Under the pieces are notes generated by a model. That model was not told where the DNA came from and did not search any database. It saw only the letters and a program-made list of their open reading frames with translations. This document shows, piece after piece, positions 17,167 through 59,817 of a stretch of 62,950 nt of DNA. How positions within the stretch are numbered: the stretch's first letter is position 1; each line of letters starts with the position of its first letter. Origin of the DNA: a virus; the IMG/VR virus record IMGVR_UViG_3300050343_000162, positions 1 through 62,950 of that record; one strand, given 5' to 3'. The translations under genes were made by a program, and so were the position numbers.

Positions 17167-19393
17167 ACTATATCAAGAATTAAGTAATTATATTCCTAAG
17201 TCTGGTGTATTTAAAAAAAAGAATACAAGCAAGACGTGGCTATATGGGTATAGTGAAAAATATGATTTAGTTATTATATCTAAAACAGGTCGAATAGGAA
17301 AGATATTAAATTAACGGTTTGGTTATTGGTATGCCACCAGAGCCTAAAGAGATGTTTAAAAGAGGTAAAGAAAAAAAAGAGCAATACTGGGAGCGTGAAG
17401 AGCTTGCCTAAAGATTTATCTCGTATAAACATCTATCTTCCAGTGGAACGATAGACCTCTGCTAGTTTTAAAAACAAATGGGTTGATTACATAGAGGCTG
17501 AGTTTGATAGAAGAGAGCTGGGATATTGGTTTTATAATAATGGAAAGCCTACTTATATGACAGGTTCGCATTATATGTATCTTCAGTGGACAAGTATAGA
17601 TGTTGGGTATCCAGACTTTAGAGAAGCTAATAGAATCTTTTTTATATACTGGGAAGCTTGTAAGGCTGACAAGAGGTGTTTTGGTATGGATTATTTAAAG
17701 ATAAGACGTTCAGGGTTTTCTTTTATGGGTTCATCTGAGTGTGTAAACACAGGAACTCTGGCTAGAGATTCAAGAGTTGGTATATTATCAAAGACTGGTT
17801 CGGATGCTAAAAAATGTTTACAGATAAAGTTGTTCCTATAGCTAATAGACTGCCATTCTTTTTTAAACCTATTCAGGATGGTATGGATAAACCTAAAACA
17901 GAGTTAGCTTTTAGGATTCCAGCTTCTAAAGATTACCAAGAAAAATATGCACGAGGTGATGGATGATGAGATGACAGGCTTAGATACAACAATTGACTGG
18001 AAGAATACGGATGATAACTCGTATGATGGTGAGAAACTTTTGCTTTTAGTTCATGATGAATCAGGTAAGTGGCTTAAGCCAAACAACATTCAAAACAACT
18101 GGCGTGTTACTAAAACTTGTTTAAGACTAGGTAGTAAGATAATAGGTAAGTGTATGATGGGTTCTACTTCAAATGCGCTTAGTAAAGGTGGTGAGAACTT
18201 TAAGCGTTTGTTTGAGGATTCAGATTTAAAGACTCGTAATGCAAATGGTCAGACTAAATCAGGACTGTATAATCTATTTATTCCTATGGAGTGGAACATG
18301 GAAGGGTTTATAGATAGGTTTGGTATGCCTGTGTTTAGAAAGCCTGAGAAAAAAATTAGAGGGGTAGATGATGAGTGGATTACAAACGGAGCAATAGATT
18401 ATTGGGAAGCAGAGGTAGAGTCATTAAAGAAAGATGCGGATGCACTGAATGAATTTTACAGACAGTTCCCTCGAACCGAGTCGCACGCATTTAGAGATGA
18501 GAGTAAGTCATCGCTGTTTAACTTAACTAAGATATATCAGCAGATAGATTATAATGATTCATTAATCATGGAGCATCACGTTAACAAGAGGTAGGTTTTA
18601 CTGGAAAGATGGAATCAAAGACTCAGAGGTTATATGGACGCCAGATTCAAGAGGACGATTCAAAGTGTCCTGGACTCCTAAGAAAGGTTTAAACAATGCT
18701 AAGTATTCTAAACACGGAGTGTTCTTTCCATCAAATGAACATATAGGAGCATTTGGATGTGACTCGTATGATATATCTGGAACTGTAGGAGGAGGAGGTT
18801 CTAATGGAGCGCTACATGGTTTGACAAAGTATAGTATGGAAGAAGCTCCAAGCAATGAGTTTTTTTTAGAGTATGTTGCTAGACCACAAACAGCAGAGAT
18901 ATTTTTTGAAGAAGTATTAATGGCTTGTGTGTTTTATGGGATGCCTATACTGGTTGAGAATAACAAGCCTAGGCTACTCTATCACTTTAAAAACAGAGGG
19001 TATAGAGGGTTTAGCATGAACAGGCCGGACAAACATTACACTAAACTATCTAAGACAGAAAAAGAACTTGGAGGTATACCGAATACTTCTGAGGATATTA
19101 AGCAGTCTCATGCTGCCGCTATAGAGTCGTACATAGAAAAATATGTAGGTTTAGATTTAGATGGTGGTTATAGAGCTGGAGAAATGGGTAGTATGTATTT
19201 TACTAGGACTTTAGAAGATTGGGCTAGGTTTGATATAAGTGCTAGAACTAAGTTTGATGCTAGTATTAGTTCAGGTTTAGCTATTATGGCAAATCAAAAG
19301 CATGTATATCTACCGCAGAAAAAAGAGTCAAAAATAAGTCTTAACTTTGCAACATATAATAACAAAGGAACATTAAGTGAATTAATTAGATGA
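17144..19393 (+). CDS. terL: Terminase large subunit (TerL), frameshifted
   Basis: About 750 aa after repair. A TTG start at 17144 (then QNEGQNKLYQELSNY) is proposed since no ATG lies in frame. Landmarks: WVDYIEAEFDRRELGYWFYN, LKIRRSGFSFMGSSE near a deviant Walker A, LLLLVHDESGKW (Walker B with catalytic DE), GKCMMGSTSNALSKGG (motif III-like) and the C-terminal RNase H-type nuclease with AFGCDSYDISGT and ARFDISARTK. Indels near 17312, 17405-17470, 17808, 17935 and 18594 break the frame. Packages DNA into the prohead through the portal encoded next, with which it overlaps (ATGA). Confidence 0.85.
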
Positions 19394-59103: not shown

Positions 59104-59131
59104 AAATAAACCTGGAGAATCAATCCAGGTT
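59104..59131 (-). terminator. Hairpin terminator after tRNA-like gene
   Basis: ACCTGG and CCAGGT pair around a nine-base loop (59109-59131); on the minus strand TTATTTT follows. It would end the tRNA-like transcript before the 59081 gene. Confidence 0.6.
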
Positions 59132-59202
59132 TTTTTGGCTATGGAGTCATAACTTCCATTGATTCAGATATTACGGTTTATGTTGAATATCCGCCACTTA
59201 GT

Positions 59203-59355
59203 AATAGGGGGGAGGACTCGAACCTCCGACTTCTATACCCACCATTTCCGCTTGTTCTAGAATTGAGTTCCTGGTGTTGTTAGAATTAATTAATAGCTTA
59301 ATTACGGCTTTAAATTAACTTCAAGTATAGCTTCTACCTACTGAATTACCCCTTT
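59203..59355 (-). tRNA. tRNA-like gene interrupted in the anticodon loop
   Basis: Read on the minus strand: acceptor AAAGGGG (59355-59349) pairs with CCCCTAT (59210-59204) except one A-A; U8-A9; D-arm TTCAGTAGGTAGAA with GG; a five- to six-bp anticodon stem CTATAC (59330-59325) with GTATAG (59238-59233); and a perfect T-arm GGAGG-TTCGAGT-CCTCC (59227-59211). Between the anticodon-stem halves lie 86 bases instead of 7. If the first seven form the loop (TTGAAGT) the anticodon is GAA (Phe). The extra 79 bases are too short for a group I intron. CCA is not encoded. It may be an intron-containing, degenerate or composite tRNA. Confidence 0.5.
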
Positions 59356-59361
59356 TAATTG

Positions 59362-59817
59362 TTACCAGGAAGCTTTATAGGAAAACTCATCTTCTAAAGC
59401 TTCACTATTGCTTAATATTTCCTCAAGCTCATCAGCAGTTACCTGGAGATCTTGCCAATAATCTTCGTCATATTCATCAGAGCCAAAGAAAAAACCTCTT
59501 GAAGTCGGAAGCACCGACTCCGCATGGTCTTTGTTTTTCAATGAATATAATATATCGTCCAGGAGGTTTGCTAATTGCTCGCTACTTACATAATATTCAG
59601 CACAATTATCAATTCCGTTTTGAATATTCTTAACAAACCATTGATGAATTTGATTAGCTTTACGCCAATAAATTTCCTCAAATTCTATTGTCATTACTTT
59701 TGAGGAGTCAATACTTCTTCCATTTCTGGAAATTTTGACATTATGTTTTTGTTCCTCTGGAGTATGCTCCCAATTTTTAACATACTTTTTCCTGGTTAAA
59801 TACATATCTAATCCCAT
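59362..59817 (-). CDS. Conserved phage protein, MGLDMYL family
   Basis: A 151-aa protein with MGLDMYLTRKKYVKNWEH, then EEIYWRKANQIHQWFVKNIQ and acidic C-terminus. The G-L-D-M-Y-L start and Y-W-R-K-A-N-Q-I-H-x-W-F box are hallmarks of a family common in phages and some plasmids with no established function. Its ATG overlaps the stop of the next upstream gene (TAATG). Confidence 0.7.
   Translation of the reverse strand: MGLDMYLTRKKYVKNWEHTPEEQKHNVKISRNGRSIDSSKVMTIEFEEIYWRKANQIHQWFVKNIQNGIDNCAEYYVSSEQLANLLDDILYSLKNKDHAESVLPTSRGFFFGSDEYDEDYWQDLQVTADELEEILSNSEALEDEFSYKASW

Follow-up and report, generated by a model that had tools for sequence, protein, structure and literature searches.

We have identified a tRNA-like RNA element with an extended anticodon arm on the minus strand (59356..59201) of the window, the virus record of 62,950 bases that was analyzed here as a whole. 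The element is probably a divergent member of a family of RNAs, found in viral contigs, in which the acceptor, D, and T arms of tRNA are kept and the anticodon arm is closed by a covarying helix. We also lean, by a little, toward reading it as a stand-alone, non-decoding tRNA-like RNA, made up of an acceptor/D/T elbow, a 7-bp helix that consumes the anticodon loop, and an apical module.

A tRNA-like element with an extended anticodon arm

ARAGORN in its default mode found no tRNA in the window; in intron mode it reported a single one, c[59201,59356], a cloverleaf in which the anticodon loop holds an insert of 79 bases. When 300 dinucleotide shuffles of the window were searched in intron mode, an insert limit of 300 bases gave one match and a limit of 150 bases gave none, which bears out the initial annotation of a tRNA-like gene interrupted by 79 bases at this loop. 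In the tRNA covariance search that had been suggested as a check, Rfam detected no tRNA (RF00005) in the element even at E values of up to 10. Covariance model CM R1 aligned to 59357..59198 with 53.8 bits (the runner-up in the window reached 11 bits), although this model scores ordinary tRNAs equally high, does not tell family members apart from them, and passed over the apical part of the element in its alignment.

Read along the minus strand, the element starts five bases past the stop codon of a 151-aa gene (59362..59817, minus strand; phrog_7971, with no assigned function). Its acceptor is formed by AAAGGGG (59349..59355) and, as aligned by CM R1, CCCCUAU (59204..59210); the discriminator would be U, and CCA is not encoded. 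The D-arm, with the D-loop AGTAGGTA, occupies 59332..59345, and the T-arm, GGAGG-UUCGAGU-CCUCC, occupies 59211..59227. U8, A14, G15, G18, G19, A21, C48, and the T-loop TTCGAGT are elements of the tRNA elbow, and all of them can be read from the sequence of the element. The initial statement that all arms pair as expected holds for the extended anticodon helix, where CUAUACU (59324..59330) makes seven standard pairs with GGUAUAG (59233..59239, placed by the CM R1 alignment), but not for the acceptor, which is not fully paired and has an A.A mismatch at pair 2-71, or for the D-stem, which has three good pairs. In a constrained fold, the 5' side of the insert is predicted to form an A/U-rich hairpin (59285..59320), also found in the sister phage described below, and an upper helix pairs CACCA (59272..59276) with UGGUG (59240..59244). 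The sequence CTAA directly follows the acceptor (59198..59201), and a terminator-like hairpin located by a consensus scan some 70 bases further on (59108..59132), which is kept in the sister phage, marks the likely 3' end of the transcript; all of these features lie on the minus strand.

A seven-base anticodon loop with U33 is absent, in that ARAGORN found no tRNA without an insert, and the anticodon varies with the parse: ARAGORN read Thr(GGT), or Phe(GAA) when the insert was fixed at 37/38, and a parse with a five-base variable loop gave UGA. Because of this ambiguity, the Phe identity initially assigned to the gene was rejected. A group I intron was also rejected, since the insert has only 79 bases and Rfam matched no catalytic core, in agreement with the earlier judgment that it is too short for one. 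A tmRNA was rejected because the ARAGORN tmRNA search at the 80% threshold listed nothing at 59 kb, and the Rfam families were rejected because none of them matches the element.

We also considered whether the locus is an attachment site or the captured 3' half of a host tRNA, since bacterial tRNA genes contain the 3' piece GGAGGTTCGAGTCCTCCCCCC (at least 119 places in 118 loci; among the matches listed, 80 are tRNA-Met and 13 are unassigned). This explanation is highly improbable: the identity ends at the acceptor CCCC in the 118 loci listed, a longer 25-mer had no match in genome contigs, a scan of 23 different window proteins detected no integrase, and the 5' half of the element pairs with the 3' half, which would be needless for an attachment core.

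A family of closed-arm tRNA-like RNAs

Three starting loci (L168, L170, and L344) have a common apical sequence and an anticodon stem that continues beyond position 31. A scan of viral contigs for the apical core motif ATCGTGAAAAGCAAANGGG, which used neither the D-loop nor the T-arm, yielded 15 loci, and in all 15 the motif lies within the same tRNA-like layout: acceptor, D, and T arms, an anticodon stem prolonged into a 7-bp helix (27-33/37-43), and a large structured apex. These 15 loci represent 12 distinct sequences, which were aligned over 153 columns. The 7-bp lower helix is 100% paired in all 12, including positions 32-38 and 33-37, and over the whole structure 94.8% of 384 cells are paired. 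Two-sided changes occur in 19 of 34 pairs, whereas slid versions reach no more than 5. All 500 shuffles have a lower covariation score than the family.

The outer end of the acceptor is irregular in many members, pairs 1 and 2 being broken in 7 and 6 of the 12, respectively. The D-loop AGTAGG and the T-arm GGTTCGAGTCC are present in every member, and CTAA stands just past the acceptor in 11 of them. In 11 of the 12, no single excision can leave a loop of seven bases that has U33 and a purine at position 37; these RNAs are therefore better understood as tRNA mimics than as intron-bearing tRNAs. For most members, the fetched locus contains no tRNA gene. In L527, L530, L535, L170, and L531, the tRNA-like RNA is preceded, at a distance of a few bases, by a TTCGTATATT-like sequence that may be its promoter. 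Two further closed-arm tRNA-like RNAs, L185:3863-4005 and L202:2259-2405, have in common an upper helix of the form GGCNTAACTTAC...GTAAGGTC and are possibly a second subgroup.

The core motif was found in none of 395 Bacteroidota genomes, blastn with two family members against 50,697 phage records returned nothing, and no Rfam 15 family matched, the one member tested giving only a subthreshold tRNA match. A search of literature mostly outside the subscription journals yielded no description of a closed-arm tRNA-like family.

In L168, L344, and L528, the RNA and the gene queC are no more than about 150 bases apart; in L524, described below, queC is located about 140 bases upstream and is separated from the RNA by a tRNA-Met, and in the record of L533 it is farther from the RNA. 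As a general partner queC was rejected, since 15 of 20 records, many of which are fragments, had no match above the cutoff. The closest QueC among phage records, 69% identical, is that of a Flavobacterium phage, a hint that the hosts are Bacteroidota. No family RNA is present in the first 50 kb of the 160 kb of that isolated phage. A protein search with a neighbor gene of L533 gave nothing.

Relationship of the window element to the family

The window element has the closed-arm layout, with its seven standard pairs in the lower helix, and it carries the AGTAGG D-loop, the GGTTCGAGTCC T-arm, and CTAA past the acceptor. These three marks occur together in none of 2,426 distinct ordinary tRNAs, among which AGTAGG is found in 60 and CTAA in 135. 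This control was drawn from the fetched loci, omitting genome loci L350 to L467 and tRNAs near locus ends, and it is conservative, because some of its loci had been picked for AGTAGG. The marks were partly spotted by comparison with the window; none of them entered the motif scan by which they were established.

Further agreement is found in the shape of the RNA. The upper helix CACCA/UGGUG of the window element stacks on the lower helix with no 3'-strand base between them, as CCN/N'GG does in the family, and the A.A mismatch at acceptor pair 2 is the same outer defect as that of L344. A structural rule whose only sequence requirements were a general tRNA D-loop and T-loop was run on the window and the fetched loci; its 30 rows comprised the family with duplicates, L185, L524, the window element, its sister, and 5 others, and it gave no match in 300 shuffles of the window. 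A further scan yielded 52 stretches, of which the sister phage was left out, 51 were examined, 43 were dropped, and 8 were kept.

The apex of the window element is where it diverges: the core ATCGTGAAAAGCAAANGGG is absent, and its apical similarity to the family was matched by 1,228 of 2,000 shuffles. L524 is instructive in this respect. It also lacks the core motif, it has the same queC neighbor as L168, L344, and L528, and its apex consists of a 5' hairpin and a stacked upper helix, as in the window element. Since L524 stands beside queC yet is without ATCGTGAAAAGCAAANGGG, the core motif may define only a subgroup. Excision of the insert could leave the window element, unlike 11 of the 12 members, with a loop that has U33 and a purine at position 37.

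The initial annotation had offered a miniature intron, a tRNA-derived regulatory RNA, and a decayed gene. The regulatory RNA comes closest to the evidence, because the layout and the three sequence marks match a covarying phage family that has no anticodon loop; at this single locus, the other two keep some probability and are weighed below.

Conservation in a sister phage

A sister phage (IMGVR_UViG_3300047157_000114, locus L002) also has the element, which differs there at 4 of 156 bases. The D-loop, T-loop, and anticodon stem are identical in the two phages, and the acceptor of the sister phage has one further mismatch in the register used for the window. Over the element and its tail, 5 of 256 bases differ, compared with 17 of 152 third codon positions in the upstream gene. 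Divergence in the neighborhood is uneven, a nearby 118-aa gene differing at 5 of 357 bases, and the conservation of the element is therefore weak evidence, which supports constraint and falls short of proof. The element is carried by two close genomes only, and the covariation evidence is that of the family and not of the window's own helices.

These data bear on the reading of the element as a decayed tRNA or tRNA-like gene that is retained by linkage alone, which we regard as unlikely, though deserving of serious weight. The acceptor is imperfect in both phages, which form a single pair of closely related genomes, and the free fold of the element favors another pairing, beating the forced cloverleaf by 2.4 kcal/mol (-32.2 versus -29.8); the folding energy itself is ordinary (z score of -0.44). 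Decay would not lead one to expect unchanged D-loop, T-loop, and anticodon stem sequences or the low divergence of the element and its tail relative to the third codon positions next door, and the irregular acceptor is a trait that the element has in common with a covarying family.

The combination of D-loop and T-arm was found in 2 of 50 primase-relative records, those of the window and its sister. The window primase is 66.6% identical to one in the uncultured phage record MW202828, and weaker, partial matches were obtained with Flavobacterium, Cellulophaga, and Polaribacter phages. Other tRNA-like sequences were observed in related loci: two tRNA-like elements lie side by side in the primase relatives L091 (11039-11217) and L112 (16030-16208), one with two T-arm-like hairpins, and an ordinary tRNA-Asp follows relatives of the 151-aa gene within about 100 bases at L027:6568-6642 and L028:6585-6659. 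Elsewhere in the window, a chaperonin (Cpn60/GroEL) is encoded at 903-2498 on the plus strand, and the terminase large subunit extends over two plus-strand frames, 17947-18594 and 18665-19393 (phrog_6681 positions 268-470 and 527-754), a split that may reflect a frameshift, a small insert, or a sequence error.

Other interrupted phage tRNAs

Interrupted tRNAs of another kind are frequent in viral contigs. A scan for a D-loop and a T-arm 70 to 99 bases apart gave at least 120 stretches; among the matches listed, a plain tRNA explains 49, and 71 are without one. Good acceptor, T, and anticodon stems are present in 22 of these 71, and in 15 of the 22 the insert can be placed between bases 28 and 29; within the same listed matches, the insert motif C[AT]GCAA occurs in 13 of the 22 and GTTACT in 4. 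The Rfam tRNA model scores several of these interrupted tRNAs at 46 to 48 bits. Another scan produced at least 121 matches, of which 114 were dropped and 7 were kept.

Inserts of about 46 to 63 bases at or next to the 28/29 joint of otherwise good tRNAs were seen at L119, L124, L132, L137, L138, L139, L141, L160, L180, L191, L206, L215, L220, L223, L227, L230, and other loci. Many of them consist of a hairpin followed by ACAGCAA or have GTTACTT at the end, and an identical insert interrupts a tRNA-Asn in both L137 and L141, where the stem differs by a paired change (CTTGG/CCAAG versus CTAGG/CCTAG). Taken together, these very short introns or inserts look like one coherent class. At L195:4191-4348, L228, L234, L505:6610-6754, L115, and L123, the insert itself holds a T-arm, which gives the locus the look of a tRNA within a tRNA; a case of this sort is reported for Lak phages.

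The likeness between the 28/29 class and the window element is that both are missed by a plain tRNA search. The class differs in that its inserts lie inside the anticodon stem, leave a normal anticodon loop, and often contain CAGCAA or GTTACT. An insert at 28/29 was rejected for the window element, which falls outside the class because its insert follows the complete 5' strand of the anticodon stem.

The abundance of short-insert phage tRNAs (71 stretches without a plain tRNA among the matches listed, from at least 120) lends something to the reading of the window element as an intron-bearing tRNA that loses the 79 bases, a process proposed for tRNAs of Lak and other jumbo phages. Loops with U33 and a purine at position 37 are possible in the window element, and tRNA introns of Lak phages have been published (PMC6784885). 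The best loop on this reading is CUUGAAG, with the anticodon UGA and a five-base variable loop. A tRNA-Ser with the anticodon UGA demands a long variable arm, and the element has none. In addition, the insert lies elsewhere than at 28/29 and contains neither the CAGCAA nor the GTTACT motif, acceptor pair 2-71 is mismatched and the sister phage has a still poorer acceptor in the same register, CCA is not encoded, and the three marks point to a family in which 11 of 12 members are unable to yield a decoding loop. We consider a spliced tRNA improbable at this locus.

Proposed role and significance

The reading we prefer is that of a tRNA-like RNA that does not decode. In such an RNA, the acceptor end, D-arm, and T-arm would build the tRNA elbow, and the anticodon stem would continue as the 7-bp helix, use up the anticodon loop, and bear the apical module, which in the window element would be the A/U-rich hairpin and the second helix stacked on the first. 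Across the family, the chassis would be fixed and the apical modules exchangeable. The RNA may be cut out of the operon transcript of the 151-aa gene or be transcribed separately, with its 3' end presumably at the terminator; it would keep a partly open acceptor with a CUAA tail and stay uncharged, and the module on the anticodon arm may add a second activity. As a proposal to which we give less than even odds, the RNA, itself incapable of decoding, may act by presenting its tRNA elbow to a factor that binds tRNA; candidate factors would be RNase P, the CCA-adding enzyme, a modification enzyme, or a tRNA-targeting defense protein.

More broadly, we tentatively suggest that phages, probably of Bacteroidota, may carry a new class of small RNA in which an elbow chassis with swappable modules hijacks or blocks a tRNA-binding host factor, the window element having a variant module. 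If this is true, some phage tRNAs reported as intron containing would not contain introns, and a covarying elbow RNA without a decoding loop would explain part of the puzzle of phage tRNA introns with no need for splicing. The family also provides a concrete RNA with which to ask which tRNA-binding protein meets it.

Comparison with known systems

Plant viruses, bacterial Y RNAs, and tmRNA provide known cases of tRNA mimicry. The Y RNAs that mimic tRNA, YrlA among them, resemble the RNAs described here in being non-decoding RNAs with a tRNA-like fold. The Rfam YrlA model matched only at an E value of 3.5, and a link to a Y RNA/Ro and RtcB system was rejected because no Ro60 (TROVE) or RtcB gene was detected in 20 records of members, possible relatives, and the window or its sister; as far as these records, many of them fragments, show, this argues against a phage-encoded Y RNA system.

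Introns in tRNA genes of Lak phages were first reported, and called enigmatic, by Devoto 2019 (PMC6784885), and tRNA introns were reported again for 262 jumbo phages (PMC13037316). The likeness is that tRNA-like genes of phages contain extra bases whose processing is puzzling. The difference is that the extra bases in Lak and other jumbo phages are presented as introns that interrupt otherwise normal tRNAs, whereas the family described here has a closed, covarying helix, and 11 of its 12 members cannot be spliced to a decoding loop.

Phage T4 produces rnaC (species 1, 139 bases) and rnaD (species 2, 119 bases), which are likewise small, stable RNAs, comparable in length to those described here and encoded beside tRNA genes. 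Like the family, rnaC has a T-arm and an acceptor-like end, and CM R1 reaches it mainly through its 3' end (16.6 bits). The two T4 RNAs differ from the family in having neither an AGTAGG D-arm nor an extended anticodon arm. We know of no function for either of them, and we take them to be the nearest precedents for stable tRNA-like RNAs in phages.
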